Positions 17,621 through 51,434 of a DNA stretch of 51,929 bases are shown here, in pieces. Both the position numbers and the translations under genes were made by a program. The notes beneath the pieces are model-generated. The model searched no databases and was not told where the DNA came from. It worked only from the letters and a program-made list of their open reading frames with translations. Origin of the DNA: a virus; the IMG/VR virus record IMGVR_UViG_3300020416_000010, positions 1 to 51,929 of that record; one strand, written 5' to 3'. Position 1 is the stretch's first letter. Each line of letters starts with the position of its first letter.

Positions 17621-17836
17621 ATGAACGTACAAATTGTTATTAACACATTACAGAAAAAAATCTCTGACCTGACTTTAACAAATGTGATGCTGGAAGCTCA
17701 AATCGCTGATTTGCAAGCACAGTTAAATACTATAACCGAACAAAATCCTAATGAGACTGCTTTAGATGGCAACGAGAATCAAACTGAAGAGGTCGAGCAC
17801 AGCGTCAGCAGCTCCGACGACTTCGACACTCCTTGA
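17621..17836 (+). CDS. Small coiled-coil protein overlapping the next gene, 71 aa
   Basis: Residues 5-38 (I-N-T-L-Q-K-K-I-S-D-L, then M-L-E-A-Q-I-A-D-L-Q-A-Q-L) form a clear amphipathic heptad pattern; the rest is acidic and Ser/Asn-rich. Similar short coiled-coil proteins beside fibre genes are familiar from T4-like marine phages. Its last 71 bases overlap the start of the 2426-residue fibre gene in another frame. The acidic tail is therefore encoded by the same bases as that protein's basic start. Function unknown; a fibre assembly or trimerisation factor is possible. The start has no strong Shine-Dalgarno. Confidence 0.65.
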   Translation: MNVQIVINTLQKKISDLTLTNVMLEAQIADLQAQLNTITEQNPNETALDGNENQTEEVEHSVSSSDDFDTP

Positions 17837-20800: not shown

Positions 20801-23800
20801 TGGTAACTCAGACTTAAATGGTCTTGTTAATGGTAACACTTATTATATTGTAAACAGAGATACAACAAATAATACTTTACAGTTATCAGCAACATCTGGT
20901 GGTTCTCCAATATCATTAACTGCTGCTGCAACTCCAAATGAAATACACAACCTTGTTGGTATAACTGCCACCGCAACAGCAACAGTGACAAGTGGTTACA
21001 TTAGTGCAATCACTATTACAAACAGAGGTTCTGGATATGTAACTGGTGCTGCACCAACTCTTACAATCAGTGAGACAGGTGCTGGAATTACAGACGCATC
21101 AATTACTGTAAACCTTGGTAGTGAAGTAAGGTCAATACAAACAACTGGTACTGCGGTATTTTCTACCACACCATCACTAGTAATCACTGCAAACACTAAC
21201 GACCCTAATGGTTCTGGAGCAGCTGCGACAGTTGCAAACATGACTTATGCTGTTGCAAGTGTTACATTAACTGGTGCAGGATATGGATATTCACAGACAC
21301 CTCAAGTAAGTTTTGTTGGAGCAAATACTAACGCTGCAGTTGCTAGTGCAACTCTAGACACAGAATTAGGTCAGGTATCAGAGATTACATTGACATCTGG
21401 TGGTGAAGGATATTCAACCGCACCAACAGTCCAAATCAATGGTGGTTCTGGTTCTGGAGCACAGGCAAGTATTACTGTCCTACCTTTTGGTGGTAATATT
21501 TTATCTGGTGGTTCTGGATATGCAGTTGGAACTTATCAGAACGTAACTTTAAATGGCGGAACAGGAACGGGTGCTACTGCAACTCTAACAGTTGCTGGAT
21601 TATCTGGAACAATCACTACTGCTGGTACAGGTGGTACAGAAGGAACATATCAACAAATAGACATATACCCAAATTCTCCTGCAGCAACATATCCAGTAAC
21701 GGTACAAAACCGTGGACTATTAGAATTTGATTCTACTGGAGGAATAACTGGAACTGCTGCAGTTGGCGACACAGCAACTGGTGCAACATCAGGTGCTACT
21801 GCAACTGTATCTTATGTCGATAGTGCAGGACAGTTTGCATACTATGTTATCTCATCATTAGCAAACGGACCTTTCCAACAGGGTGAGACAGTCAACTTTA
21901 CATCTGGTGGTAGTGGAAGTTTAGTACAAGCACCCGTTGAGACATACAGATATTTCATAGACACAGGATCAGGTCCACAAGAAGCACCAGCTTTGACCTT
22001 TGTAAGGGGTAACACATATCGTATGGATATGTCTGATAGTAGTAATACAAATCACCCAATATCATTTGATGCTATTACATTAGCAGATACTGCAAACTAT
22101 GCTATCAGAGAATATGGAACGCCAGGTACTGCAGGAGCATTTGTAGACTTTGTTGTTCTACAAAACGCACCTACAAGCACAGGCACTGTTTACTATACAT
22201 GTACAAGTCACGGACAGTCTATGTCTGAGAGTTCCTACATCACAATTACAACTGGTGCTGCTGGTGTATATGGTGTTGGTGGACAAATAGATGTTACTGT
22301 TGGTGGCGGTGGTGCAGTTACTGCTGTTGCATTCTCAACTGGTGGACAAGGAACTGGTTGGAAGGCAGGAGACGTAGTTAAAGTTGGAAACTCATCATTA
22401 ATAGGAAACACAACTGGATTTACATTTACTGTAAGTGCTAACGATACAAGTATTAGTTCAGTAACTGACATTGTATCATCAGGTAGTGGATATACTGTAG
22501 GTGACGTTCTTACTGTTGATGATGCTGACGTAGGTTCTGGTGGAGGTTCTGGATTCCAGTTTACTGTTACTAAGGTAGGTTATATATTCTCTGCAGTATT
22601 ATCATCTGGTGGTTCTGCATTCTTCCAAGGACAAGACATAGTATTTGATACCACAAACTTCAATGGTTTAGGTGATAATGGTAGTAACTTTGCATTAAAA
22701 GCAAATACCATTGATACTTCTGAGGTTACAACGATTGCTGCAGATGGTTCTTTAAAATCTGCAGAATATGGATTCTCAGAAACTGGTATTCTAACTTGTG
22801 GTTCTGGAGCATCAACAACAAGTACATTATCCAATGATACATTAACAACTGGTACTGCAACATTACGAGGAGACTTGACTGGACAGGCAGGAGCAAGTTT
22901 CAGTACAACATTAACTGTAGGAGGATTGACAACTCTTAACGGTGACTTGACTGCAAATGGTGCAACTAACTTTGTTGACAATGCTAAGGTAAAATTACAG
23001 AGTGGTACAGCTGCTGCACCAACTCTTGTTCTAGCATCAGAAGATACAACTGGTTTCTACAGGTCTGCTGCTAACGAATTTAGTTTCTCTGTAGCGGGTG
23101 TACAAAAAATTAGATTAGGTGCAGTTATTGATACTGCTACACCTTTAACTGTAGATTCATTACTAGGTGCAACAAATCCTTACTTTAAGGTTGACCCTGC
23201 TACAGAAACAACAGTTATAGGTACTGTACAATCTGCCTTATCAATAAACAATGCTACTGAAATTAGTGCTGTAGGTGCTGACCAAAACATTGATATTACT
23301 TTTACACCAAAAGGAACTGGTAATCTTGTTCTAAAAGGTGGTACAGATATATTATTCTCAGTAACTGATGGAACCACAGAGCAGTTTAGTATAAACAGTT
23401 TAACTGGTGATACTGATATTAAGGGTAACTTAGAAGTTGATGGTGCATTAAAGATTCAAAGAAGCACAATCAATAACTCTGATACAGGTGGAACATCATC
23501 ATTTGGTGAGGTTGTTACATGTACAGTTACAGGAACTGGGTCTGGATATACAAACGGTAGTTACAGTAGCGTAACATCTACATCAAACGGAAAGGGTACT
23601 GGAGCAACATTTACAGTTGTAGTTTCTGGAGGTGCAATTACATCTGTAGTTCCAACAGCATCTGCTAGAGGTTCTAACTACTACATTGGTGATACAATAA
23701 CACTTGACTCAGGAGCAATCGGTGGTGGTTCTGGAAACACTGTTACTGTTACTGACACCCAAGGTCAAGGTCTTGTATTGAAACCAGCAGGAGGAAAGAG

Positions 23801-25046
23801 TGTTTGGGTTAACAGTACAGGTGCATTTATAATTCCATCTGGTACAACTAACCAAAGACCAAGCACCGTAGATAGACTTGCGGGTGCAATTAGATTCAAC
23901 AGCACACAACAACAGTTTGAAGGATACAATGGAAATGACTTTGTATCTCTAGGTGGTGTTCGTGACGTTGACCAAGATACTTACATATTAACTGAGTCTT
24001 CACCAAACGCTGACGAAGATACATTTGAGTTCTTTGCTCAAGGTGTTAATTGCTTATCACTTGATAAAGATAAGTTTACTCTTAAGAATGCAAAACAATT
24101 TGACGTACCTGGCACAGCAATCTTTAACGGAACCGCTGCTGGTAACCCATTCTCAGTTACATTCCAAGGTGCTAACATAGCATCCTTTAGGTCTAAGAAA
24201 GACTTTGAAGTTGCTAACGGACTAAGACTAAGAGGAGTTCCTACACAAGGTACAATAGCAACGATTGGAACTGAGACATCAAGCACTGGTGCTTATGGTG
24301 TATCACAAACATATAACGGTGTGGTATCAACTGGTCAGTTTGAAGGTACAGGAGCAACATTCAATGTCACCACTAATGGAAGTGGAAACATAGACCAAAT
24401 AAACATCGCAACTGGCGGTAGTAACTATGAAACTGGAGAAATCATTACAATTGGTGGTGACTTACTTGGTGGTGCTACTCCTGCAAATGATGTCACTTTC
24501 CCAGTTACAGCACTCTCAAGCACTAAGAGTCCATTTGCAAGACTTGATGTTATTCAGCAAGATTATGTAACTCAATTAGATTCCAAACCTTTCGTTAGTT
24601 TGGATGCTAACGGTGCACAGGCAGCATGGAAAATCAACAGAGGATGGAACGGTGGTACAGAAAGTTACCTAACAGTCTTTGATTCTACTGCTGATTTTGT
24701 TGAACTTGATGACTGTAGAGTAGAGGGTGGACAGTTAACATCATTTACTGCTAACACTGCTATCACACAATTTAATAAGACAACATTCAAAGGTGCGAAG
24801 ACATTAGTAACTATAGAAAGTAACGATGGTAAAGTTCATATGTTGGAGATTACATCTATATGTGCTGCAGCAGGAACTACTGCACATGCCACCGTAACAA
24901 ACTCAGTAACATCTGATAACGACCTAGTTGATGCATCAATTGCTGTTGCTGGTACTAACGTTAATATCACGCTTACAAAATCTAGTGCAGCAACCTCGTC
25001 CACATCCTTTACTGGTAGATTCACAACTACAAAGGTCAAGGTATAA
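17766..25046 (+). CDS. Giant tail-fibre-like protein with beta-helix, LamG-like and cupredoxin-like domains, 2426 aa
   Basis: The N terminus (MATRIKLKRSSTASAAPTTS, LDGEVAVNTADKKIYVRDG) is a standard phage fibre opening. Residues about 75-300 look like a right-handed beta-helix (VGSDNDLLGNGGNNG, TITKALTKCSSGDTVVIAPG, GVTVRGTNLRSTII). Residues about 440-620 match a LamG/concanavalin-like lectin (SIIFDGTQDNLQVP, WTLEAFIRPASV, WYHVAVSRSNGVTRLFLDG, GHIDEVRI). Many GGSGY repeats follow in 20380-22620. Residues about 1393-1495 are cupredoxin-like, with H1430, C1479, H1482 and M1486 in the type-1 copper order. The C-terminal part has fibre blocks (G-T-G-N-L-V-L-K-G, KSVWVNSTGAFIIPSG) and ends in a beta-sandwich-like segment. 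It probably binds host surface glycans; binding and copper content are inferred. Confidence 0.8.
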   Translation: MATRIKLKRSSTASAAPTTSTLLDGEVAVNTADKKIYVRDGSNIVEVANAEPAVGEITTAMLNADITNGQGKTFYVATVGSDNDLLGNGGNNGKHPDTPFLTITKALTKCSSGDTVVIAPGEYQEVFPITIPDGVTVRGTNLRSTIIKPTNATQSNNAIVLNGDCHVSDFTLKDFLYASGADTGYGFVIGSSMDSTTSPYVERVTVSTKGSVVSSSDPYGFSQGDAGRGAKLDGANVDSNSLNASVLFNECTFITPGSVGLYMTNGIRVEWLNCFNYFASIGVQAVQGATGKYGTGQTRLKLGGTSGTFSTNEVTYQLEDGFQSGTYARAGTTVTLTRTAHGLVSNDYIYADHISGGATDNFYQITKVDNNTFTYTDSSSGTIAAGNVTYKKAVGRGVVASNDGTYVYITGKGTGEFVSTTKPAKTLSRFGDTQIDTGQSKFSGSSIIFDGTQDNLQVPTNADFGFGTANWTLEAFIRPASVTGTQRIFDLRNASATDTAPTVYMDGTALRYAVGNTSQINGGTLSVNTWYHVAVSRSNGVTRLFLDGTELGSSYTDTNNYGDTKPVVIGSNYDTTSPAEAFNGHIDEVRIKKAQGSYSGNFTPTTSEFTSDLFTVLLLHGGGNDATTIFTDSSGGTSDIRSSGGDSATVVTTADYSAFGAEMRSVASACVYGNKGVQADGAGTKLILTAHNFGYVGAGPDFTNDPSLAVQANEVEELNSGKVLYSSTDQDGDFRVGDAFTVDQETGNVQFQATSSAQSAANITLSDETGTTNIYPAYVETGNLRLAGNSLTSTSGKIILDPAGDEDITLNGQVVAPENIYFASNRLASILGTGNSSCAFTVGSYTQAGFSSYGIFSNKNFAINKKALNLTTGLTIVNEGTAYDAGQYNAPLLSNPDQVATATATLAANGSIGVVNVTNEGNGLYIQTPDVTTNITPVTGNVSFIVSLGTGARVASLIIVSGGSGYSSPNLTLSAPPAKAFDANSAISTAANTITFTQSDFVNGDACTYDNNGNSDLNGLVNGNTYYIVNRDTTNNTLQLSATSGGSPISLTAAATPNEIHNLVGITATATATVTSGYISAITITNRGSGYVTGAAPTLTISETGAGITDASITVNLGSEVRSIQTTGTAVFSTTPSLVITANTNDPNGSGAAATVANMTYAVASVTLTGAGYGYSQTPQVSFVGANTNAAVASATLDTELGQVSEITLTSGGEGYSTAPTVQINGGSGSGAQASITVLPFGGNILSGGSGYAVGTYQNVTLNGGTGTGATATLTVAGLSGTITTAGTGGTEGTYQQIDIYPNSPAATYPVTVQNRGLLEFDSTGGITGTAAVGDTATGATSGATATVSYVDSAGQFAYYVISSLANGPFQQGETVNFTSGGSGSLVQAPVETYRYFIDTGSGPQEAPALTFVRGNTYRMDMSDSSNTNHPISFDAITLADTANYAIREYGTPGTAGAFVDFVVLQNAPTSTGTVYYTCTSHGQSMSESSYITITTGAAGVYGVGGQIDVTVGGGGAVTAVAFSTGGQGTGWKAGDVVKVGNSSLIGNTTGFTFTVSANDTSISSVTDIVSSGSGYTVGDVLTVDDADVGSGGGSGFQFTVTKVGYIFSAVLSSGGSAFFQGQDIVFDTTNFNGLGDNGSNFALKANTIDTSEVTTIAADGSLKSAEYGFSETGILTCGSGASTTSTLSNDTLTTGTATLRGDLTGQAGASFSTTLTVGGLTTLNGDLTANGATNFVDNAKVKLQSGTAAAPTLVLASEDTTGFYRSAANEFSFSVAGVQKIRLGAVIDTATPLTVDSLLGATNPYFKVDPATETTVIGTVQSALSINNATEISAVGADQNIDITFTPKGTGNLVLKGGTDILFSVTDGTTEQFSINSLTGDTDIKGNLEVDGALKIQRSTINNSDTGGTSSFGEVVTCTVTGTGSGYTNGSYSSVTSTSNGKGTGATFTVVVSGGAITSVVPTASARGSNYYIGDTITLDSGAIGGGSGNTVTVTDTQGQGLVLKPAGGKSVWVNSTGAFIIPSGTTNQRPSTVDRLAGAIRFNSTQQQFEGYNGNDFVSLGGVRDVDQDTYILTESSPNADEDTFEFFAQGVNCLSLDKDKFTLKNAKQFDVPGTAIFNGTAAGNPFSVTFQGANIASFRSKKDFEVANGLRLRGVPTQGTIATIGTETSSTGAYGVSQTYNGVVSTGQFEGTGATFNVTTNGSGNIDQINIATGGSNYETGEIITIGGDLLGGATPANDVTFPVTALSSTKSPFARLDVIQQDYVTQLDSKPFVSLDANGAQAAWKINRGWNGGTESYLTVFDSTADFVELDDCRVEGGQLTSFTANTAITQFNKTTFKGAKTLVTIESNDGKVHMLEITSICAAAGTTAHATVTNSVTSDNDLVDASIAVAGTNVNITLTKSSAATSSTSFTGRFTTTKVKV
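20380..22620 (+). repeat. GGSGY repeat array in the 2426-aa fibre
   Basis: About ten units of a hydrophobic strand, Gly-Gly-x-Gly-Tyr, x-x-x-P and Gly-rich strand type (SGGSGYSSPNLTLS, NRGSGYVTGAAPTLTI, TGAGYGYSQTPQVSF, SGGEGYSTAPTVQING, SGGSGYAVGTYQNVTL). The array is interrupted by Y-Y-I and cupredoxin-like segments. Confidence 0.75.
21943..22250 (+). other. Cupredoxin-like domain in the 2426-aa fibre protein
   Basis: The order is a strand with a FVRGNTYRM motif, an NHPISFD motif carrying H1430, and a final YYTCTSHGQSM motif carrying C1479, H1482 and M1486. This reproduces the His ... Cys-x2-His-x3-Met ligand order of type-1 copper proteins. Fold and ligand set are read from motifs only; copper binding is inferred. 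Confidence 0.65.
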
Positions 25047-39585: not shown

Positions 39586-40393
39586 AAAGACTTGGATAGA
39601 ACATTCATATAAACTAGAAGGTGGACAGACTAAGTACCAGAACCAAAACTTTGTGGTTGGTACACAGATTACACCATTTAAAAAAATTCAACAGGCACTA
39701 CTAGAACTACAGTCTAGAGATAACACTAGAGTGGAGTTGCAGTATCGTCTTGACAAGAATGCTATAGATTTAAAAAAATTAAATCGACAATTAAAACTTG
39801 CTCAAGATCCTTTAGACAAGGAAGCAATAGAGATTGAGATTAACAAAGCTCTCTATGATAGAAGTATATGGGAGCAAAAGGTAGTCATCTGCAAACGTGA
39901 GATTGAGAACTTCACATCGCAGTTAGATGAGATGGTAGACAAATCAAAAGGAATAGAGTATTATCTTAATACCAATGAGGAAGAAGATAAGAAATATTGG
40001 ATTAGTCGTATGGCAAAACAGGCAGCATGCGACATGATTTCTTTTGGACATGTTGGTACGGGTAACATGGATTCTATTATGAATCTACCTACTGAAGACC
40101 AGATACAAGTATTGTCTGGTGCTGTATCTCACTCCTCTATAATTGCAGCAGGAGTTGCGTCCATGCAAAAACAAATGGGTGGAACCATAGGTCATATCAT
40201 AAACGGTGGTGAGTTTAAACCACCGCAGATAAATGGTTCTGAAATTACATCATTACCAGAGGATACACCTCCTCCACAAATAGGTTCTGCAGAACCACCA
40301 GAGGTTCCAAAGACACCTCTAATTACTGAACTAAAACATGACATCCCCAAAAAGAAAGTCCGTCTTCAGTCTCCCAATAAATCCAAAGATTGA
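39566..40393 (+). CDS. Coiled-coil hypothetical protein, 275 aa
   Basis: The start overlaps the previous gene by 20 bases. Residues 30-130 are long charged helices (L-L-E-L-Q-S-R-D, LDKNAIDLKKLNRQLKLAQD, IEIEINKALYDRSIWEQKVV), strongly predicted as coiled coil by eye. Then come KYWISRMAKQAACDMISFGH, V-G-T-G-N-M-D-S-I and an 'E-D-Q-I-Q-V-L-S-G-A' segment. I associate this combination with a conserved protein of unknown function in cyanophage structural clusters. The C-terminal 60 residues are Pro-rich (TPPPQIGSAEPPEVPKTP) and probably disordered. Function unknown; its C-terminal coding end overlaps the start of the methyltransferase fusion gene by 56 bases. Confidence 0.65.
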   Translation: MELSDSEKTWIEHSYKLEGGQTKYQNQNFVVGTQITPFKKIQQALLELQSRDNTRVELQYRLDKNAIDLKKLNRQLKLAQDPLDKEAIEIEINKALYDRSIWEQKVVICKREIENFTSQLDEMVDKSKGIEYYLNTNEEEDKKYWISRMAKQAACDMISFGHVGTGNMDSIMNLPTEDQIQVLSGAVSHSSIIAAGVASMQKQMGGTIGHIINGGEFKPPQINGSEITSLPEDTPPPQIGSAEPPEVPKTPLITELKHDIPKKKVRLQSPNKSKD

Positions 40394-42119
40394 TTCACGG
40401 TACGCTGAGGATGTCTTCATTCCTTGGTTGAAGCAACATAAAGAATACATAGTTGATCTGTATTTCACATGCAGGATGCCACCATTTGCACAAGATGCAA
40501 TGGGTGATGTTTTTAAAGGTGACCCAGTTCAACTTTTTTATAATGCTTACCATATTTTTCAAGAAACAGGAATACCATTATCAGCAACTTTTAACAACAT
40601 ATACGTTAGACCAGACTTAGAAAATTTAGATTTATTTGTAAGAAACTTTCGTCAGTTATATGAAGCAGGAGTCAAGACAGTAACGATACCACATACTAGT
40701 TGGGTATCTACTGGTATTTTGCATAGAGAATTTCCAGAACTAAAAATAAAGAATACAATACTTAGAAATGTCAGTAGAGCAAATGAGATAGTTGCTCTTG
40801 CTGAGGTAGGTTTTCATTACATCAATCTAGATAGAGATTTGATGAGAGACCGTGACGCACTAATAAGAGTAAAGAAAGCAAAAGATTTTTGTGCATCCAT
40901 TGGTAAACCAGTAGAGATATCAATTCTAACAAACGAAGGTTGTTGGGGTGGATGTCCTATGATGGATGAACACTATCATTTTAACAGCACTAGGAACGAG
41001 GACTCACCTCAATATTTTATGGATCCCATTAGTACAAACTCTTGTGCAAAATGGGATATCGAAGACAATGCACATGCATTAAAAGCAGCAAATCTACCAC
41101 CATGGAAGTCTGATTGGAATGAGTTTTTAGACCTTGGTATTGATGTATTTAAAATGCATGGTAGAGAAAATGCGATGAAACTCAAAGAGTCCATGGATAT
41201 AATATCTGCATGGGGTAATGAGAAGATAGAGGTGATGTATCCTGAGTTTAACAAATACCTAGATGACCTAGCGATAAAAGATAGACCAATAGATGTTTGG
41301 AGAAACAAAATAAAGAACTGTAAGTTTGACTGTTGGGACTGTAATTACTGTGAGATTGTAGTAGACACACATCTTAAGAAACAGGAAAGAAATACAGAGA
41401 TGGATGAGTTTGTTAGAAGAACAATCAAGGCAATAGATGATGGTATGACAAAACAGTCTAACTTTAATCCTGACGGTTTTACACCTCAAGGTTTATCGTC
41501 AGACCGCATTAGACATTTCTTAAATAGTCTATGCTCTTATGAGGATGCTGTATACCTAGAGGTAGGCACCCATGTTGGTAGTACATTCTTTGCTGCTACC
41601 ATGAATAACAATGTCAAATGTTTTGGTGTTGATGACTTCTCAGAAGCAAATGTCAAACCTTTGACTGACCACATACAATGGACACCATGCAATCCATACG
41701 ACACACTAGTAAGCAACTGGGAGAAGTATGAAAATGGAAATGCTGTATTCCTCAAGTCATCTATTGAAGAGTTGACAGATGAGGACTTTGAAGGTAGCAA
41801 ACCGAACATATTGTTTTATGATGCAAGTCATGATATGATGGAACAGTTAAGCTCCCTCAATCATCTATTACCCTTTTTAGATGATCAGTTTATTTTAGTA
41901 GTAGACGACGCTAACTTTGATGGTGTTGTAGAAGCAACTATGGACTTTGTTAGTGAGAACCAATTAGAAGTATTTTTTGAAAGAAAGATACTCAGCGGTA
42001 TCATAGAAAATCCTAACCACTGGTGGAATGGAATTCATGTTCTAGTCCTCAGAAAAGATACACTTGTCAATAACTACTTCGGTACAAACCGAGACGCATC
42101 ACAGTATGAAACTTATTAA
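40338..42119 (+). CDS. Cys-rich barrel-like domain (tentatively U32-like) fused to a SAM methyltransferase, 593 aa
   Basis: Residues 20-310 look like an alpha/beta barrel (L-Y-E-A-G-V-K-T-V-T-I-P-H, IVALAEVGFHYINLDRD, KPVEISILTNEGCWGGCPM). They carry C45, C202, C206 and C236, recalling the four-Cys Fe-S site of U32-family proteins (UbiU/UbiV, TrhP, RlhA); this match is tentative. A second cluster follows, C328, C332, C335 and C338 (C-x3-C-x2-C-x2-C). Residues about 400-580 look like a class I SAM methyltransferase of the Methyltransf_24 type: motif I is YLEVGTHVGST, and later come F-G-V-D-D-F, ILFYDASHD and a WWNGIHVLVLRK strand. The target is unknown. The gene overlaps its neighbours by 56 bases (upstream) and 14 bases (oxygenase gene), so it is probably cotranscribed with both. 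Confidence 0.6.
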   Translation: MTSPKRKSVFSLPINPKIDSRYAEDVFIPWLKQHKEYIVDLYFTCRMPPFAQDAMGDVFKGDPVQLFYNAYHIFQETGIPLSATFNNIYVRPDLENLDLFVRNFRQLYEAGVKTVTIPHTSWVSTGILHREFPELKIKNTILRNVSRANEIVALAEVGFHYINLDRDLMRDRDALIRVKKAKDFCASIGKPVEISILTNEGCWGGCPMMDEHYHFNSTRNEDSPQYFMDPISTNSCAKWDIEDNAHALKAANLPPWKSDWNEFLDLGIDVFKMHGRENAMKLKESMDIISAWGNEKIEVMYPEFNKYLDDLAIKDRPIDVWRNKIKNCKFDCWDCNYCEIVVDTHLKKQERNTEMDEFVRRTIKAIDDGMTKQSNFNPDGFTPQGLSSDRIRHFLNSLCSYEDAVYLEVGTHVGSTFFAATMNNNVKCFGVDDFSEANVKPLTDHIQWTPCNPYDTLVSNWEKYENGNAVFLKSSIEELTDEDFEGSKPNILFYDASHDMMEQLSSLNHLLPFLDDQFILVVDDANFDGVVEATMDFVSENQLEVFFERKILSGIIENPNHWWNGIHVLVLRKDTLVNNYFGTNRDASQYETY

Positions 42120-42816
42120 TCCTCAAATATTAGAATCTCTCCATCCGAAAGATTGGGAGGTCGAACAACTGCATATAGGCAAAGCGAAAAACAGAGTTAT
42201 CAAAGTAAAAAATTTCTTTGTTAACCCAGAGGAGGTTAGAGCATATGCTCAATCGGCAGACTATGTGTCTACTGTAAACGGTGAGTTTTCTAATTTGCCT
42301 GGCTACGTGTCCAAACTAGGTCATGTGGCAAACCAATTACTACCTCAGTTTAGATTTTTATTATCTAACTACTTTGAGTGTAGTAAACAATGTATGAAGA
42401 ATCCACAGGACTCTCACTTTACATTCCAAATGTATCAGGTGCATGAGAACTGTAGAATGTGTAGTCTTACACCACATACAGATGACACTCACTACGCTGC
42501 AGTGTTATCATTAAATTATGACGAAGAGATGGAGGATGCTGAAAATGGCACTGCATTCTGGAGACATGCTGAGTATGATGAGGAGTTTATATCCTCTGAT
42601 AAAAACTATAGAGTCGATAGAATTGTCAGTAAAACAAATGCCATGGTCAACTTCGACCCCTCTAAGTATAAAACAAAGCATTGGGAAAGGTATCATACCG
42701 AACCACATGAGTTCAATAGTCTATTGATTTATGAAGGTAGGTTATGGCATTCGCCTTTCTTTAAACAAGAAGGTTGGGAGACAAACCGCCTGACATTCAA
42801 TGCATTCTTATCCTAA
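42106..42816 (+). CDS. Probable 2OG-Fe(II) oxygenase (DUF6445-like), 236 aa
   Basis: The start chosen is the ATG at 42106, in preference to a TTG 14 codons upstream, because the protein then begins MKLINPQILESLHP and the overlap with the upstream gene is only 14 bases. The metal site is visible as H124-x-D126 (TPHTDDTHYAAVLSLN) and H215 (RLWHSPF), with R228 (NRLTFNAF) as the likely 2-oxoglutarate anchor. NGTAFWRH between them fits the double-stranded beta-helix. The pattern resembles the DUF6445 family of predicted dioxygenases. Such oxygenases are common auxiliary genes in T4-like cyanophages. Its substrate is not apparent; the overlap with the methyltransferase fusion suggests a shared pathway. 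Confidence 0.75.
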   Translation: MKLINPQILESLHPKDWEVEQLHIGKAKNRVIKVKNFFVNPEEVRAYAQSADYVSTVNGEFSNLPGYVSKLGHVANQLLPQFRFLLSNYFECSKQCMKNPQDSHFTFQMYQVHENCRMCSLTPHTDDTHYAAVLSLNYDEEMEDAENGTAFWRHAEYDEEFISSDKNYRVDRIVSKTNAMVNFDPSKYKTKHWERYHTEPHEFNSLLIYEGRLWHSPFFKQEGWETNRLTFNAFLS

Positions 42817-43373: not shown

Positions 43374-46300
43374 ATGAAGAGGGTAGTAGTAAGGGTCAGC
43401 GATAACTATAGTTTGGATTCTGCTGCTGCAGCAATCTTGAAATTGTATGGTTACCTTACCTTTGTAGAATCATTTAGAACTTTCTCAATCATAACATTTG
43501 ATTGTCCTGAGAGATATACCAGTGTAATAATAGACCAACTACGTGCATTGAACGTAGTTAAGAAGGCGACATGGGATGCTAATGCATTTCAACTTAACCC
43601 TGTCTACGAGTCACAGTTGACAGCTGAGACTAGTGGTACAGCAGTGTTGAATGAAACTGGAGAGACTAACACAGTTGGCAACACTAGACAACTTACAGGT
43701 GCTGGATCAGGTACAATATATGTAAAAGTTCAGAACATTAACGGAAACAATCTATATCTTTTTTCACAGACACAGAACGGAGTATATTCACAATTTGCAA
43801 ACCAGACAGGTTTCTTACAGGGTGCAACATACACCTTTGACCAGAGTGACTCTTCTAATGCTACTCATGGTATGAGGTTCTCTGAGACTCCTGACGGACC
43901 TTGGACTACTGGTGGAACTACGTATAGCAATGGTGTTGTAGTTACAGGAACTGCAGGACAAGCAGGAGCTTCCGTAGCAATAACAATCAGCTCTAGCACA
44001 CCATCTATCCTCTACTACTATTGCATCAATCACAGTGGTATGGGACGCTATGACAATCTACATGCAAATAGATTTGGTACCATAAACGTACATGACTACT
44101 GGCATCTAGACAGAATTACAAAACAAGACAGACAATACCTTAACAGACAATTTAGTTACAACCAAGATGGTAACGCAGCAGACTTATATGTGATTGATAC
44201 TGGTGTTCGTGGTGCTTCTAGGCCGACTGGTAACAACGCTGCTCTTCACTCTGAGTTATATGATCCTTCATATGTCTCTGACCTAAACGGTACTACAGAA
44301 CAACAGAACTATAGGGTTTATCAACTCGGTCACTATGCTGGTGCACATGGTTCTAACAACGAAGATGACAATGGACATGGAACACACTGTGCAATTCTCG
44401 CGGCTGGTAGAGGGGCGGGTATTGCTAGAAGAGCAAAGATATATGCATTAAAGGCATTTGATAGTAACTTAAGTGCATCTTATACTAATATACTGGCAGC
44501 ATATCAGGCAGTTATAGACCATAACGACAGTGGAAACGGAAATTACAAAGGAAACACTCGGCCTGCTGTCATCAATGCATCATTCGGACCTACGATTCCT
44601 AATGCAAACTATCCATACATTGAACTAAATGATGCTGGTAGTGACTCAGGAACTGACGAAGAGATACTAGACGACATCGAAGGAACGATTGCAAGCACAT
44701 ATAATATCATTATTGTTCGCTCTGCTGGTAATGGATTTAAGAACAGTAGTGATGCTTTCGCAGGTCCTATACAAGGTAAATGTATTTCTGGTACAAGAAC
44801 TGCTGGTTATGCAGATAATACTAATGGTGGTATCAACACAGTTGACGCAAACCAGAACAAGGTATCAGTCGGTGCTACAGAATATAACGATAGATGGGCG
44901 GACTTCTCAAACTATGGTGCTGGTACAACAACTACTGCACCAGGTGCAAGGATCCTAGTTCCTGCATACGATTGGACTGCTAACACTCCTACAACTAGTG
45001 CATCAAACTATACAACTATAGGTGGTACATCCTTCGCTGCACCTTTAGTTGCTGGTGTTGCTCTTGCATGGTGTGGTGCAAATGGTTACACGTTAACAAC
45101 AAATAATCTTACAGGCACATTTAAAACTTTCTGTAGAACTCCAAACGATGTAGGAGATATCAGAAAAGGTGGTAGCACATTCTACCCAACAAATAGTATT
45201 GAAGATAGAAAACTAATAGACAATCCATATGAGACTGCTGCTGGTTCTAATTTCTTAATTGTAAAATTTAACCCTGCTGATGCTTCTCATTTCCTAGGAA
45301 ATGTAGGTAAGAAATGTCAGTTAAGAACAACAGGATCTACTGCTGGTGCAGGAGGTTCTACACCAACAACATTTAATATAACAACAACTGCACCATCATC
45401 AGGATACTACACTCTTAACGGAACTGATAGAAATGGTGCTGTTAGTGGTAATGATGTAGGCGTGACTGTTTATGTCGGTGATACAATAAACTTTAATTTA
45501 TCAAACGTATCTGGTATACACCCGTTTTATATCAGAGTGTCTAGCAATGGTGCTAACGTAAGCACTCCTTCTGCATCAGGACAAGGATCCACAGGTAACT
45601 CAACAGTATCATGGACACCTAATACTGCAGGAACATATTACTATCAGTGTGGTGTTCACTCTGGAATGATAGGATCTATAACTGTACAAACTGCACCTGG
45701 CGGTAGTGGTGGTGTAGTGGTTGGCGGTATAGATGTATCTGGTTTATCACAGTCTGGTTGGTTGACAATACAGGCAGAGAGTGCAATCAATAATACAATT
45801 ACTGTACAGAACACAAGTAATGCTACTGCTGGAACTACAGGTGGTGGGTCTAATAACTATCTTGCACTCATAGATCCTGAGTCAAAAACACATGAAAGTA
45901 TAGATGGTGTTGTATCTACATCAACAACTTTAAGATCCCAGACCGATACACAAGAAGCACAGGGCACAGGTCAATATACAAATGTCGTATACTATCCAGT
46001 AGACTCAGGTGTAGACTTTGATTACAATGGCACTGGTGGTACACTGACTAAAAAACGTGGTGCATTTTTCCCTTATGTCGATACAAACGTAACATGGACA
46101 ACTAGCACAGGTGCACTTAACGGTAGTCCATATGCAGATGGAGCAAACATAACTGTAGAACTCGGTCTTGCTGGTACAACATTTGCTAACGAACCTACGT
46201 TTGAACAATACACATTAAGTGGAGATGCTATTGGTGCATCAGGATTGACATTCAATACTGCAACTGGTCAACTATCAGGCACAGTAACATCTGATTATCT

Positions 46301-49286
46301 TGACACAACATTTAATTTTACAGTAACTGAGAACGTAACTCAAAATGCTAGAGCATATAGTTTTACTACAACAGGAACTGGTGTTCTAATTACAATTACT
46401 GGAAACCCAAATTCTACATCTGTTGAGGCAGGAGCAAACATCAACGCTGTCTTCGGTCCTGTATCTGCAACTAGTTCAGATGGTTCTACCCTACTATACC
46501 AATGGGAGTTCTCAAGCAACGGTGGTGTAGGTTGGTCTAACGTAACTAATGGTGGATTCTATAGTGGTGCTACCACAAACACATTAAGTGTAGATGATGA
46601 ATACTCACTAAACAATTATCAATATCGTTGTCAGGTAACCTCTGCAACTGCTATTGCACCTGGCACAACTACTGCTGCTACATTAACAGTAACACGTGTT
46701 ATTACAGTTGACACACAACCAACAAATCAACAACCCGTGGCACCAGCAGCTGCTGCATTTACTTGTGCTGGTTCTACAAAAGACGCAGCAACCCTGTCAT
46801 ACCAATGGCAGATATCACAAAATGGTGATGGCGTAACCTTTGCAGATATTGGAGGAGCAACAAGCACAACATACACTACAGGAAGCACATCATACGATAA
46901 TGACTATGGTGACTTCTACAGATGTAAATTAAATGTTGCTGGTGCACCAGAGGTGATAACTTCCTCTGCACGTAACTTAGTACAACGTACAATTAGTATA
47001 ACCTCACAACCATCAAACGTTACAGGTGCTGTGGGTGGTACAGTTTCATTTGGTGTTGCTGCAAATACATCTGATAATGATGCAGGAGATATTACATTCC
47101 AATGGCAAGTATCTCTTACTGCTGGTGCGTCATGGTCTAATGTATCAGAAGGAACTGGTGGTACAAGTGCAACTTATACAACGCCTACACTAACTCAAGC
47201 ATACGATGAATACCAATATCGTTGTTTGCTCGCTGCTAATGGTGCAACAACTATACCTAGTAATGCTGCTACATTACAAGTAGAAACAGTAACGGTAATT
47301 GTATCTACTCAACCAACAGGTTCTACAGTTACTGAAGGTAATACTGCTACGTTTACTACACTCGGTGGTGTGACAATGGCACCTGTAGGTGGTAACGCTG
47401 CATCGTCATCATTTGATGTTGAGCAATTTGACACACCGACTGGTGGAGGTGGTGGTGCTGAAGGACAATCACAGCACGAACCTAGTGTAACTTATCAATG
47501 GGAAAAGTCAGATAACGCCCATGATGTTACTACACCAACAACTTATACTGTAACTGTCGCTGCTAAGACAGCAAGTCATCCTTACTACAATCAAGGATCT
47601 GGAAAAGGATATTATATTATTGGTGGTGTTTACGACACAGTAACACAAGCACCTAACTTGCAGTTTGTAAAAGGTGCAACTTACGTATTCAATCAAGACG
47701 ATGCATCAGTTACAACACACGCAATATATTTCAGTGCTGTAGAAACAGCATACGCTGGTAGTGACCGATATGAAACAGGCGTAACCTACACACTAGACGG
47801 AGTTGATGTAAGTTACACTGCATATGATACTGGTTTTGCTACCGCTACACAACGTCGTGTAAGTATTACAGTAGATGCAAGTGCACCTTCCACGCTTTAC
47901 TATGCTTGCCAAGCACATCAATATATGGGTAACGCAATCACAGTTGGTGATGTTGTATGGAGCACACTTGGTGGTGCAACTTCTGCATCATATACCACTG
48001 CTGCTACAACTTACGCAGACGATCATCTTGACCAATATCGTTGTATTATTGCAGCGACTGGTGCTGCATCAAACGCAACAACAAATGCTGCAACTCTCAA
48101 TGTACAAAGGACATTATCAATAACATCTCAACCCGCAAACGCAACTGCTAACGAAGGTGGTACTGCAGCATTCTCTGTTAGTGCTACTGGTAGTAGCGGA
48201 ACTCCAACATACCAGTGGAAGAGATCAGACGATGGTGGTAACAATTACGTCGATGTTACGGGTGCAAATAGTAGTTCTTATACAACACCAACACTTACAT
48301 TTGCTGCAGATAATGCTGACAGATATGTTTGTGAGGTATCTCTAGTAGGTGCATCCTCAAGTGTGACATCAACGTTTGCTTTATTGTCAATCTTACGTGT
48401 GATTACAATAGGTACACAACCACAGAACCAAGGAGTTATTGAAGGTAACCAAGCAACCTTTACTATTGTTGCATCTATAACAAGTGATGTAATTACATAC
48501 CAATGGCAGAAGTCTGTTGACAGTGGTGCTAACTGGAGTAATATCAATGGTGCAAACTCAGCATCATATACAACTCCTGCTACAGTTTATCCAACAACTC
48601 CATCTGAGCAATTCAGATGTGTTCTAACAAATCCAAATGCTACAACAGTTACATCTAATGCAGCAACACTGACAGTTAATGAGTCAGAGTTTGTATCTGC
48701 ACCAGCATCTATAACACCAGTTATAGACAGTGATACAAGCAAAACATTCTCCAGACAACCAGTTATAAACACAGCAGCATATGTTGTTGAGTATTCTGGT
48801 TCTGTACACTTCTCTAGTTTCTGGAGAATAAGAAGAGTTAGTGATAACGTCACAGTATTCAATACTGCAGACACATTTACTAATGGTGATACTGGTAACT
48901 TAACATCACTAACAGTCCCTAGTGGCACACTAGATTTTGATACTGCATATTCTGTACAGGTCAAGTTTAGAGATAACGCTGGATTGGAAAGTGCATTCTC
49001 ATCTGCAGTCAACTTTACTACACCTCTAGTTGACCAACCAGACATACAAACAATTACACCAGCATTTAATCCAACCATCAATGTAAATGCTATTGCAATG
49101 AAGACTGGATACACTCACTCATCTAGTGATTGGCAGTTCTCACCTACCAATACCTTTGCAACTATTGTTCACCAATCTCTTGGTAACTCAACAAACCTAT
49201 TATCTTATACTTTGCCTGGTGCTGTTAACCTAAGTGCTAACACTACATATTATGTAAGAATAAGATTTAACATCAACCCTACCTAA
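43374..49286 (+). CDS. Giant virion-associated subtilisin-like protease with cupredoxin, Ig and Fn3 domains, 1970 aa
   Basis: Residues 1-80 may be a subtilase propeptide-like domain (MKRVVVRVSDNYSLDSAAAA, VIIDQLRALNVVKKATWD). The S8 domain (about 265-590) has the full triad: D275 (YVIDTGV), H335 (NGHGTHCA) and S553 (GGTSFAAPLVAG), with the oxyanion Asn N453 (RSAGNG). Cupredoxin-like domains lie at about 128-225 (H165, C217, H220, M223), 666-772 (H716, C759, H762, M765) and 1406-1522 (H1449, C1512, H1515, M1518). A He_PIG-like segment lies at 922-990 (GLTFNTATGQLSG). Six Ig-like domains follow (about 1006-1770), each with a Y/F-Q-W and a Y/F-x-C motif, then two Fn3-like domains to the end. The gene lies two bases before gp13, where T4 has wac, so a neck-associated appendage is plausible. 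Protease activity is likely; target unknown. Confidence 0.85.
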   Translation: MKRVVVRVSDNYSLDSAAAAILKLYGYLTFVESFRTFSIITFDCPERYTSVIIDQLRALNVVKKATWDANAFQLNPVYESQLTAETSGTAVLNETGETNTVGNTRQLTGAGSGTIYVKVQNINGNNLYLFSQTQNGVYSQFANQTGFLQGATYTFDQSDSSNATHGMRFSETPDGPWTTGGTTYSNGVVVTGTAGQAGASVAITISSSTPSILYYYCINHSGMGRYDNLHANRFGTINVHDYWHLDRITKQDRQYLNRQFSYNQDGNAADLYVIDTGVRGASRPTGNNAALHSELYDPSYVSDLNGTTEQQNYRVYQLGHYAGAHGSNNEDDNGHGTHCAILAAGRGAGIARRAKIYALKAFDSNLSASYTNILAAYQAVIDHNDSGNGNYKGNTRPAVINASFGPTIPNANYPYIELNDAGSDSGTDEEILDDIEGTIASTYNIIIVRSAGNGFKNSSDAFAGPIQGKCISGTRTAGYADNTNGGINTVDANQNKVSVGATEYNDRWADFSNYGAGTTTTAPGARILVPAYDWTANTPTTSASNYTTIGGTSFAAPLVAGVALAWCGANGYTLTTNNLTGTFKTFCRTPNDVGDIRKGGSTFYPTNSIEDRKLIDNPYETAAGSNFLIVKFNPADASHFLGNVGKKCQLRTTGSTAGAGGSTPTTFNITTTAPSSGYYTLNGTDRNGAVSGNDVGVTVYVGDTINFNLSNVSGIHPFYIRVSSNGANVSTPSASGQGSTGNSTVSWTPNTAGTYYYQCGVHSGMIGSITVQTAPGGSGGVVVGGIDVSGLSQSGWLTIQAESAINNTITVQNTSNATAGTTGGGSNNYLALIDPESKTHESIDGVVSTSTTLRSQTDTQEAQGTGQYTNVVYYPVDSGVDFDYNGTGGTLTKKRGAFFPYVDTNVTWTTSTGALNGSPYADGANITVELGLAGTTFANEPTFEQYTLSGDAIGASGLTFNTATGQLSGTVTSDYLDTTFNFTVTENVTQNARAYSFTTTGTGVLITITGNPNSTSVEAGANINAVFGPVSATSSDGSTLLYQWEFSSNGGVGWSNVTNGGFYSGATTNTLSVDDEYSLNNYQYRCQVTSATAIAPGTTTAATLTVTRVITVDTQPTNQQPVAPAAAAFTCAGSTKDAATLSYQWQISQNGDGVTFADIGGATSTTYTTGSTSYDNDYGDFYRCKLNVAGAPEVITSSARNLVQRTISITSQPSNVTGAVGGTVSFGVAANTSDNDAGDITFQWQVSLTAGASWSNVSEGTGGTSATYTTPTLTQAYDEYQYRCLLAANGATTIPSNAATLQVETVTVIVSTQPTGSTVTEGNTATFTTLGGVTMAPVGGNAASSSFDVEQFDTPTGGGGGAEGQSQHEPSVTYQWEKSDNAHDVTTPTTYTVTVAAKTASHPYYNQGSGKGYYIIGGVYDTVTQAPNLQFVKGATYVFNQDDASVTTHAIYFSAVETAYAGSDRYETGVTYTLDGVDVSYTAYDTGFATATQRRVSITVDASAPSTLYYACQAHQYMGNAITVGDVVWSTLGGATSASYTTAATTYADDHLDQYRCIIAATGAASNATTNAATLNVQRTLSITSQPANATANEGGTAAFSVSATGSSGTPTYQWKRSDDGGNNYVDVTGANSSSYTTPTLTFAADNADRYVCEVSLVGASSSVTSTFALLSILRVITIGTQPQNQGVIEGNQATFTIVASITSDVITYQWQKSVDSGANWSNINGANSASYTTPATVYPTTPSEQFRCVLTNPNATTVTSNAATLTVNESEFVSAPASITPVIDSDTSKTFSRQPVINTAAYVVEYSGSVHFSSFWRIRRVSDNVTVFNTADTFTNGDTGNLTSLTVPSGTLDFDTAYSVQVKFRDNAGLESAFSSAVNFTTPLVDQPDIQTITPAFNPTINVNAIAMKTGYTHSSSDWQFSPTNTFATIVHQSLGNSTNLLSYTLPGAVNLSANTTYYVRIRFNINPT
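43755..44050 (+). other. Cupredoxin-like domain 1 of the protease
   Basis: G-A-T-Y-T-F-D, then ATHGMRFS with H165, and LYYYCINHSGMG with C217, H220 and M223 (Cys-x2-His-x2-Met, the spacing of amicyanin). It lies before the catalytic domain. Copper binding is inferred from motif order only. Confidence 0.7.
45370..45690 (+). other. Cupredoxin-like domain 2 of the protease
   Basis: VYVGDTINFNLSN, GIHPFYIRV with H716, and TYYYQCGVHSGMIG with C759, H762 and M765. It follows the catalytic domain. The ligand order is intact and the Cys-His-Met spacing equals that of domain 1. Confidence 0.72.
47590..47940 (+). other. Cupredoxin-like domain 3 of the protease, nested in an Ig-like domain
   Basis: FVKGATYVFNQDD, TTHAIYFS with H1449, and TLYYACQAHQYMGN with C1512, H1515 and M1518. 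It interrupts the fourth Ig-like domain between its YQWEKSDNA strand and its VVWSTLGGATSASYT continuation. Confidence 0.7.
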
Positions 49287-49287
49287 C

Positions 49288-50103
49288 ATGGCAATTCCAT
49301 CAAGCAGACAGGGACTTATAGATTACGCATTACGTCAAAACGGTGCACCTGTCCTAGAAATAAACATTGAAGATGATCAGATAAGTGATCTGGTAGATGA
49401 TGCTGTTCAATTTTATAATGAAAGACATATGGATGGATACATTAGAACCCATCTAAAAGTTAAGTATACTCAGTTGATGCTAGATGATATGACAACAGAT
49501 ACTGATACTACTGTTGCAAACGGAACATCATCTAACCAAACTATCACATTTAAAGAACAAAATAATTTTATCAAAATGCCACCATACGTCACAACTGTGA
49601 TTAAGGTATTTGATTTCGTATCTAAGAATGTCACAAACTTATTTGACGTACGTTATCAGTGGCGTCTTAACGACCTTTGGGATTTAACTCAAACAGAAAT
49701 TCTTACTTATGAAATGGTCAACAGGAGATTAGAAGACATCTACTATCTCTTGGAAGGACAAAAACAAATTAGGTATCAGATGCGTGGTGACAGATTATAT
49801 CTTGACTTAGATTTTAAAACTGATGTAAACGAAGATGACTTCCTAGTTCTAGAATGTTATCGTGCAATAGACCCTAACTCATTTACCGATGTATACAATG
49901 ACATTTGGTTAAAGAGATATGTAACCGCATTGATAAAAAGACAATGGGGTGCAAACTTAATTAAGTTCCAAGGAGCACAGTTGCCAGGTGGAATTACTAT
50001 GAACGGAGAGTTCATTTATAATGAAGGCAAAGAAGCAGTCGAGAAATTAGAAACCGAAATGCTTACACAGTATGAGACACCACCACTAGACATGATCGGA
50101 TAA
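49288..50103 (+). CDS. gp13: Neck protein gp13
   Basis: The protein opens with SSRQGLIDYALRQNGAPVLE, then I-S-D-L-V-D-D-A-V-Q-F-Y-N-E-R-H, and later YQWRLNDLWDL and KRQWGANLIKFQG. This matches the gp13 neck protein of T4-like cyanophages as I know it. In T4, gp13 and gp14 form the connector between the portal of the filled head and the tail. At 271 residues it is slightly shorter than T4 gp13 (309). It lies one base after the protease gene and overlaps gp14 by one base, the T4 order 13-14-15. No inserted repeats are visible. Confidence 0.92.
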   Translation: MAIPSSRQGLIDYALRQNGAPVLEINIEDDQISDLVDDAVQFYNERHMDGYIRTHLKVKYTQLMLDDMTTDTDTTVANGTSSNQTITFKEQNNFIKMPPYVTTVIKVFDFVSKNVTNLFDVRYQWRLNDLWDLTQTEILTYEMVNRRLEDIYYLLEGQKQIRYQMRGDRLYLDLDFKTDVNEDDFLVLECYRAIDPNSFTDVYNDIWLKRYVTALIKRQWGANLIKFQGAQLPGGITMNGEFIYNEGKEAVEKLETEMLTQYETPPLDMIG

Positions 50104-51434
50104 TGCCAAGAACCACTTATTTCACACACGGTACTAGGAACGAACAGTTTCTACAACAGAACCTAGTAGAAGAATATATCAAAATGTTTGGTATGGATAT
50201 ACTCTATTGTCCTAGAGAGATAATGGAAAAAGATGGTGTGTTTAATGAGGAAGTTATAGGTGAGTTTAATGACTCATATCTAATCGAAGCATACATGGAA
50301 AACTTTGATGGTTTCCAAGGTGGTGGAGATTTACTTACAAAGTTTGGTGTAGCACAAACTGATGAGATAACTATGATAGTTTCTCAACAGAGATTTACTG
50401 ACCTTATATCACAGTTCCTTTTAGTTGATAAAGATTATCAGGCACCAGAAAGACCACAAGAAGGAGACCTAATATTCTTACCATTAACAAGTAATTACTT
50501 TGAGATAAAATTTGTAGAGCATGAAGAACCATTCTATCAGTTAGGTAAAGGTTACGTATATAAACTCAAGGCAGAACTATTTGAATACAGTGACGAGCAA
50601 GGTGATGTATTTGATAATGACGAGGAGATAGTAGATTACGGTTATACTGTCAAACATTTCTATCTTACAACTGCTGGTACAACAGCAACTGGAACCTCAG
50701 TGTTGACTGGTGGTGAGTTAACTAACATCTTTATTACTGATAATGGTAGTAGTTACAACGAGACTCCTCTTATTACTATCACAGGTGATGGACAAGATGC
50801 AGCAGCAGAAGCATTCATGGCAAACATAACTGTCAGTGGTGGTTCTCCTACTAAGTCTGCAGTCATAAGAAGCGTTGTTAAAGATGGACAGATACGTTCC
50901 GTCAACATAGTAGACGGTGGTGAGAACTATGATGAGGACAGGGCAGTGCTCAATGTAACTGCACCTGATGCGGGTGGTATAGCAGCAACATTAGTGCCTA
51001 CATTTACTAATGGAGTATTGACTGCAATTAACATTTTATCAGGTGGTAGTGGGTATAAGAGTGTAAAACTTATAGATATTACTAACGCTGGTAGTGGATA
51101 TACAAGTGCAACAATTGCATTTACTCCTGCACCAGCAGGATTAACTGGTGCATTCCAAGTTCCAGAACAGGTTACTGGTGGAACTACTGGACACACTGCA
51201 CAGTTAGTTGAGTGGAACGCTCAAGAGGGATTTGTCAAACTCAAATCTCCTACAGGTTCATTCGTTGTCGGTGAATTGATTATGGGAGCAACGTCAGGAG
51301 CAACCATAGTATTGGATAACAAAAATGAAATGGCAACTGCTGACCCTAAATATTCAGAGAGCGTAACCTTTGAATCATTAGGTGACGATATTATTGACTT
51401 CAGCGAAAGCAACCCATTTGGATTGGTGACTTAA
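50103..51434 (+). CDS. gp14: Neck protein gp14 with inserted repeats, 443 aa
   Basis: The N-terminal 195 residues (YFTHGTRNEQFLQQNLVEEY, IKMFGMDILYCPRE, GDLIFLPLTSNYFEIKFVEH, EPFYQLGKGYVYKLKAELFE) match gp14 of T4-like phages, and so does the last segment (DDIIDFSESNPFG). Between them, residues about 200-425 hold at least four Gly-x-x-Tyr repeats (ITDNGSSYNETPLITITG, DGGENYDE, SGGSGYKSVK, NAGSGYTSATIA) and one GE/TSGA block (FVVGELIMGATSGA). The length is 443 residues against 256 in T4, and the insert explains the excess. The start overlaps gp13 by one base. The neck role follows from homology; the insert probably projects outward. Confidence 0.9.
   Translation: MPRTTYFTHGTRNEQFLQQNLVEEYIKMFGMDILYCPREIMEKDGVFNEEVIGEFNDSYLIEAYMENFDGFQGGGDLLTKFGVAQTDEITMIVSQQRFTDLISQFLLVDKDYQAPERPQEGDLIFLPLTSNYFEIKFVEHEEPFYQLGKGYVYKLKAELFEYSDEQGDVFDNDEEIVDYGYTVKHFYLTTAGTTATGTSVLTGGELTNIFITDNGSSYNETPLITITGDGQDAAAEAFMANITVSGGSPTKSAVIRSVVKDGQIRSVNIVDGGENYDEDRAVLNVTAPDAGGIAATLVPTFTNGVLTAINILSGGSGYKSVKLIDITNAGSGYTSATIAFTPAPAGLTGAFQVPEQVTGGTTGHTAQLVEWNAQEGFVKLKSPTGSFVVGELIMGATSGATIVLDNKNEMATADPKYSESVTFESLGDDIIDFSESNPFGLVT
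50690..51350 (+). repeat. GGSGY-type and GE/TSGA repeats inserted in gp14
   Basis: At least four copies of a strand-turn unit (hydrophobic strand, Gly-Gly-x-x-Tyr, strand) are followed by one block of the F-V-V-G-E/T-S-G-A type. Both unit types recur in the gp7-position, gp8, DUF4815 or fibre genes of this window. Confidence 0.7.

Follow-up and report, generated by a model that had tools for sequence, protein, structure and literature searches.

The locus and its genes

The window, the whole stretch of DNA analyzed here, is a virus record of 51,929 bases and is kin to the Prochlorococcus myoviruses P-HM1, P-HM2, and MED4-213 (Eurybiavirus). The genes at the locus are as follows.

43374..49286, plus strand, subtilase/cupredoxin/Ig-like gene (1970 aa, ATG start; phrog_27200; T4-like gene cluster T4-GC_519 of P-HM1 and P-HM2)
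49288..50103, plus strand, gp13-like neck protein/head-tail adaptor (phrog_211), beginning 1 base past the subtilase gene
50103..51434, plus strand, gp14-like neck protein (T4_neck-protein, head closure Hc2) by Pfam and PHROG

The initial annotation had put the subtilase in the neck region, and the gp13- and gp14-type genes directly 3' of it bear this out. P-HM1 and P-HM2 show the same gene order (the T4-GC_519 gene, then gp13 and gp14). Long-range orthology and synteny before gp13/gp14 place the window gene in T4-GC_519/phrog_27200. The orthologs PHM1_104 (P-HM1), PHM2_106 (P-HM2), and CPMG_00018 (MED4-213) share about 64% identity with it and occupy the same place before gp13. They are annotated as hypothetical or with PF07686 only, their cupredoxin domains are not noted, and they lack the domain called D3 below. 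An S8 peptidase was found only in P-HM1 and P-HM2 among the genomes compared by Sullivan et al. (2010; PMC3037559). Just upstream of the subtilase cluster sits a pair of overlapping genes, 40338-42119 with a weak Methyltransf_24 match and 42064-42816 (DUF6445/minor coat protein-like). From its gene position, its PHROG categories, and the annotations of the records, the 43374-49286 product may be a virion-structure protein. It might sit in the virion neck itself, as its gene position suggests.

Domain layout of the 1970-aa protein

The protein is arranged from N- to C-terminus in the following way.

43374..43628, plus strand, N-terminal domain (residues 1-85), conserved, possibly a subtilase propeptide by sequence pattern
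43704..44078, plus strand, cupredoxin-like D1 (residues 111-235; H165, C217, H220, M223), between the N-terminal domain and the protease
43866..43868, plus strand, D1 ligand codon H165
44022..44042, plus strand, D1 ligand loop C217-x2-H220-x2-M223
44100..45173, plus strand, S8 subtilase domain by Pfam (residues 243-600; D275, H335, N453, S553)
45393..45698, plus strand, cupredoxin D2 (residues 674-775; H716, C759, H762, M765), plastocyanin-family by profile and fold
45519..45521, plus strand, D2 ligand codon H716
45648..45668, plus strand, D2 ligand loop C759-x2-H762-x2-M765
46431..48683, plus strand, Ig-like (decoration-type) repeat array (about residues 1020-1770; phrog_613, phrog_25852, phrog_3995; 9ncf, E 9.6e-27)
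47565..47963, plus strand, cupredoxin-like D3 (residues 1398-1530; H1449, C1512, H1515, M1518), within one Ig-like repeat
47718..47720, plus strand, D3 ligand codon H1449
47907..47927, plus strand, D3 ligand loop C1512-x2-H1515-x2-M1518

A sequence search with residues 1-85 against solved propeptides gave no match. The Ig-like repeats have their kin among decoration and tail proteins of phages. Across the relatives of the protein, D1 and the protease are constant, unlike D2 and D3. D2 is cleanly missing in 20 of 80 relatives. Most relatives have an empty site in place of D3 and run uninterrupted across it (e.g., EKSDDGGG/AWASVGG, with the slash at the insertion point). D2 and D3 are thus modules that come and go.

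The subtilase domain

Pfam Peptidase_S8 (PF00082) matches residues 273-570 (3.7e-24, 86 bits against a cut-off of 21.8), and the nearest solved structures are aqualysin and proteinase K. The protein had been described as an intact S8 subtilase with the triad D275/H335/S553 and the oxyanion residue N453. These four residues are present at those positions, in order, and are invariant in 80 of 80 distinct homologs.

Metal-ligand sets and the cupredoxin family

Each of D1, D2, and D3 carries the His...Cys-x2-His-x2-Met set that the initial annotation had read from the sequence; all 16 residues that it named, the triad and the oxyanion Asn included, were confirmed. The CxxHxxM motif occurs exactly three times in the 1970-aa protein, which has seven Met in total. 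By composition 6.9e-4 occurrences are expected and the probability of three or more is about 5e-11. Among 20,000 shuffled sequences 19,990 had no CxxHxxM and 10 had one. A chance motif was rejected on the composition probability and the shuffles.

The relationship to cupredoxins, also proposed earlier, holds for D2 by profile and fold and for D1 and D3 by profile homology. The window protein scores 18 bits with Pfam Copper-bind (PF00127), below the gathering cut-off of 21.2; members of the D2 group match this family in 35 of 35 cases with E up to 0.1. Searched against solved chains, the D2 profile matches plastocyanin and amicyanin. A pooled profile built from 22 diverse phage domains reaches, among solved structures, copper nitrite reductase (2.6e-7), rusticyanin (2e-5), and plastocyanin (1e-4). 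The alignment with rusticyanin runs over nearly the whole length and keeps the ligands in register. D1 alone gave no match to Pfam and reached no solved cupredoxin in the profile search. The D1-D3 comparison by hhalign gives a probability of 99.4%, and D1 and D3 both link to D2 by profile; by this sequence comparison, D1 and D3 are homologous to D2.

AlphaFold models had been proposed as a check against plastocyanin and amicyanin, and the outcome was split. The D2 model (pLDDT 97.4) has plastocyanin, amicyanin, and pseudoazurin as its top Foldseek matches (probability 1.00, TM about 0.5). The D1 model (pLDDT 93.9), in contrast, has weak matches to solved structures (TM 0.4-0.5); the best is the non-copper aspartic peptidase SO1698, followed by laccases, CueO, and nitrite reductases. 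The case for a plastocyanin-family cupredoxin domain is strong for D2, as predicted from sequence profile and fold together.

With the plastocyanin/azurin cupredoxins (PF00127) the phage domains share the H...Cys-x2-His-x2-Met set and, as modeled for D2, the beta-sandwich with a ligand loop before the last strand; the loop spacing of D1-D3 is that of amicyanin. They differ in being modules of virion-type proteins, whereas the cupredoxins of that family are soluble electron carriers. D1 and D3 are also missed by Pfam, most D3 relatives carry Gln in place of Met, and the residue after the first His is Pro (91% of domains) rather than the classic type-1 second-sphere Asn. Multicopper oxidases likewise carry His-Pro at the type-1 His.

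Conservation of the ligands

The D1 ligands were followed in 80 homologs: the first His is kept in 80, Cys in 71, the distal His in 71, and Met in 80. The nine exceptions are close relatives in which Cys to Asn and His to Thr occur together (NVTTAGM). This site-less D1 clade (L010-L015, L020, L056, L064; residues about 210-230) keeps the first His and the Met and offers a natural control. In the 60 homologs that have D2 all four ligands are present in 60 of 60, a count possibly favored by one of the six search patterns, which covered the D2 Cys-His loop. D3 (16 homologs) keeps His, Cys, and His in 16 of 16; its axial residue is Gln in 12 of them and Met in 4. Stellacyanins use Gln as their axial ligand, so the Met to Gln change is the conservative swap expected for a type-1 site. 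The ligand codons differ synonymously (TGT/TGC, CAT/CAC), which indicates selection to keep the residues, beyond what recent ancestry would explain.

The wider family was sampled as 92 phage domains, non-redundant at 80%; the counts are not phylogenetically independent. The ligand states are HCHM (78), HCHQ (8), and one each of HCHL, HNTM, HSSV, DATM, ESNY, and ESSA. The His/Cys/His/Met-or-Gln set of D1, D2, and D3 is thus found in 86 of the 92. Of the 92, 87 have Cys together with the distal His and 5 have neither; no domain has one of them alone. The ligands rank among the most conserved positions (first His 0.97, distal His 0.95, Cys 0.95). In the 22 very diverse domains H45, C88, and H91 are invariant and M94 nearly so. 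Selection on the metal site, as the initial annotation had argued, is supported by the rank of the ligands and by the way Cys and the distal His disappear together. Homologs that routinely lose Cys, His, or Met, which would have spoken against it, were not seen; losses are rare, and those of Cys and distal His are joint. Site-less family copies also occur in other phage proteins (L170, 2980-3318, of cyanophage PSS2; L127; L149). These copies lack Cys and the distal His, and most of them lack the first His as well.

The four residues might instead be kept for packing in a purely structural beta-sandwich that binds no metal. Such domains would be at home among the surrounding Ig-like domains, the fold is kept in the site-less copies (the HNTM clade, L149, L127, and L170), and non-copper and copper structures are about equally good matches to D1. 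However, it is precisely the four canonical ligands that are among the best conserved residues, Cys and the distal His go only together, and Met is replaced by Gln, a known axial ligand. We consider a metal-free role unlikely. A second alternative keeps the metal site and changes the metal: another ion such as zinc could serve as a structural clamp, as in the zinc-bound cupredoxin-like protein 4hcg, which is among the D2 structure matches. Cys/His sites are able to take zinc, but a Met/Gln fourth ligand and a loop spaced as in amicyanin speak for copper, and a different metal seems improbable.

The same domain in other marine phage proteins

The initial annotation implied that a copper-site protease in a phage was unique. 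This did not hold: the same domain recurs in gp9, in tail fibers, and in at least two other subtilase architectures. The C-terminal domain of gp9 (baseplate wedge-tail fiber connector of marine T4-like cyanophages; P-RSM4, P-SSM4, and S-ShM2) belongs to the same cupredoxin-like family, and 349 phage records match when the P-RSM4 gp9 domain is used as query. To keep the motif out of the selection, and with it the bias noted for the D2 count, a further query was gp9 minus its cupredoxin domain. This gave 78 complete genes with 62 distinct tails, and HP plus CxxHxxM is present in 62 of the 62. Examples of gp9 genes are L089 (3050-4282), L164 (514-1743), L165 (805-1749), and L174-L253. The gp9 proteins (T4-GC_398) thus share the family and the ligand set with the window protein; they have no protease, and their baseplate location is by annotation.

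The proximal tail fiber of P-SSM2 has two copies of the domain with the same ligands. Further carriers with the same ligands are the S-SZBM1 baseplate wedge protein, the S-TIM66 virion structural protein, S-B68, the podovirus P-GSP1, and fibers of the pelagiphages Baldr and Mosig and the Methylophilales phage Melnitz. S-TIM5 has the domain by tblastn and fold match. The D1 model finds 62 viral matches in BFVD at E<1e-3, among virion, fiber, baseplate connector, and peptidase S8 proteins. The window itself holds one more copy.

21936..22337, plus strand, fourth cupredoxin-like domain (residues 1391-1524 of ORF 17766-25046), loop CTSHGQSM, one residue longer

The T4-GC_292 subtilases of S-H9-1, S-CAM4, and S-MbCM7 and the 'peptidase S8' of S-BM3 combine a subtilase with a fully liganded cupredoxin, like the window protein. 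Unlike in the window protein, the cupredoxin is C-terminal in the first group, where the catalytic D, H, and S align, and lies inside the S8 domain, between its His and Ser parts, in S-BM3 and three metagenomic relatives. A second, downstream copy is seen in S-BM3 (L005, 1-7680) and in L254-L256; its loop is full in S-BM3, L254, and L256. The P-SSM2 version of T4-GC_292 has no cupredoxin, and the gene directly downstream of it has two.

A scan of the genomes of 84,980 cellular species with the gp9-type domain, a query that detects close relatives only, returned two MAG contigs. One of them, from a Rhodopirellula MAG (L173, 3086-8296), carries ORFs of about 408 aa and then 1327 aa. This is the gene-length order of cyanophage gp9 and its downstream gene, and the contig therefore looks like phage DNA, probably binned into a bacterial MAG. 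A cellular origin of the domain was rejected, since the scan for close relatives gave these two contigs only and one is phage-like. The best reading of the distribution is that the cupredoxin-like domain is a mobile, widely reused module of marine phage tail, fiber, and baseplate proteins.

Phages also carry plastocyanin (petE) as a separate metabolic gene, which is absent from P-HM1 and P-HM2 (Sullivan et al., 2010; PMC3037559). It too is a cupredoxin in a phage, but it is a metabolic gene for host photosynthesis and not a virion module. A host-captured metabolic plastocyanin was rejected as the source of the domains described here: they are modules in virion-type proteins, and P-HM1 and P-HM2 have no petE.

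In open-access full text, the scope of the literature search, we found no description of a cupredoxin or of copper in phage virions. Some of the domains may already carry a label in automatic databases. Fold and site are known; their place in phage virion-type proteins is unexpected, their reach is wide, and the combination seems not to have been described.

Possible function of the domains

Our preferred explanation, which we hold with moderate confidence and only a little above even, is that the domains are predicted metal-binding modules of the virion surface, stabilized by copper, and that in this T4-like phage of the Prochlorococcus type they flank a subtilase. Each module would be a small beta-sandwich in which His, Cys, His, and Met/Gln form one type-1-like site, most likely for copper. 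Cupredoxins bind one copper per domain, and very tightly. Free copper is negligible in the cytoplasm where phage proteins are made, so loading would come after lysis: the copper-poor host cytoplasm would yield the apo-module, which would take up copper at lysis or in seawater. Once bound, the metal may lock and stabilize an exposed domain, a role that could be common to gp9, the fibers, and the protease. In the window protein D1 and D2 flank the catalytic domain and may help to hold it at the host surface or to position it there, with the Ig-like adhesion array probably as its anchor or display; the protease would then cut host surface proteins. A stabilizing role best accounts for three observations: the spread over tail proteins that are otherwise unrelated, the fact that D2 and D3 are optional, and one clade's tolerance of a lost D1 site. 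The site-less D1 clade and the absence of D2 and D3 from many relatives also indicate that the protease can do without copper.

The site could alternatively be a redox or copper-gated device at the host envelope, where it would sense or exchange electrons or copper and set off adsorption, contraction, or activation of the protease. The type-1-like set with its conserved axial Met/Gln is the one that tunes electron transfer in cupredoxins, it is constant in the gp9 sample, where the protein connects baseplate and fiber, and D1 lies directly N-terminal to the protease domain. Against this, neither a redox partner nor a reducing system is apparent, the protease stays intact in the clade that has lost the D1 site, and stabilization is a simpler account of the spread over unrelated proteins. 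We judge such a device to be quite unlikely.

Metal in phage fibers has a precedent in the T4 gp37 tail fiber, with its iron sites of HxH motifs (PMC11705849). Both are metal motifs of extracellular fibers; gp37 binds iron by HxH and has no cupredoxin fold, and copper is a prediction for the phage domains. By analogy with the Ferrojan horse, metal-loaded fibers might use the copper uptake or binding sites of the host for adsorption. Such a copper 'Trojan horse' would draw on the gp37 precedent, on the presence of the domain in tail fibers and fiber connectors, and on the very tight copper binding known in general for cupredoxins. A type-1 copper is fully coordinated and hard to share, however, and the gp9 domain need not contact the host. 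We also know of no copper receptor that serves as a phage receptor in Prochlorococcus. This analogy carries little probability in our estimate.

Returning to copper-stabilized surface modules, a broader form of that reading is tentative, and we would sooner expect it to fail than to hold. It states, as one joint claim over most cyanophage gp9 proteins, many fibers, and several subtilases, that copper-loaded modules are a general functional tail component of the dominant T4-like phages of the ocean, that infection or stability depends on copper, and that the particles are a seawater copper ligand. Whatever the metal, a domain so far unlabeled in hundreds of phage genomes gains an annotation. 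Should the sites hold copper, the tails of marine phages would have a defined metal cofactor, overlooked until now in very abundant viruses. One could then test whether copper, which is both scarce and toxic in the open ocean, controls the stability, adsorption, or protease action of cyanophages.
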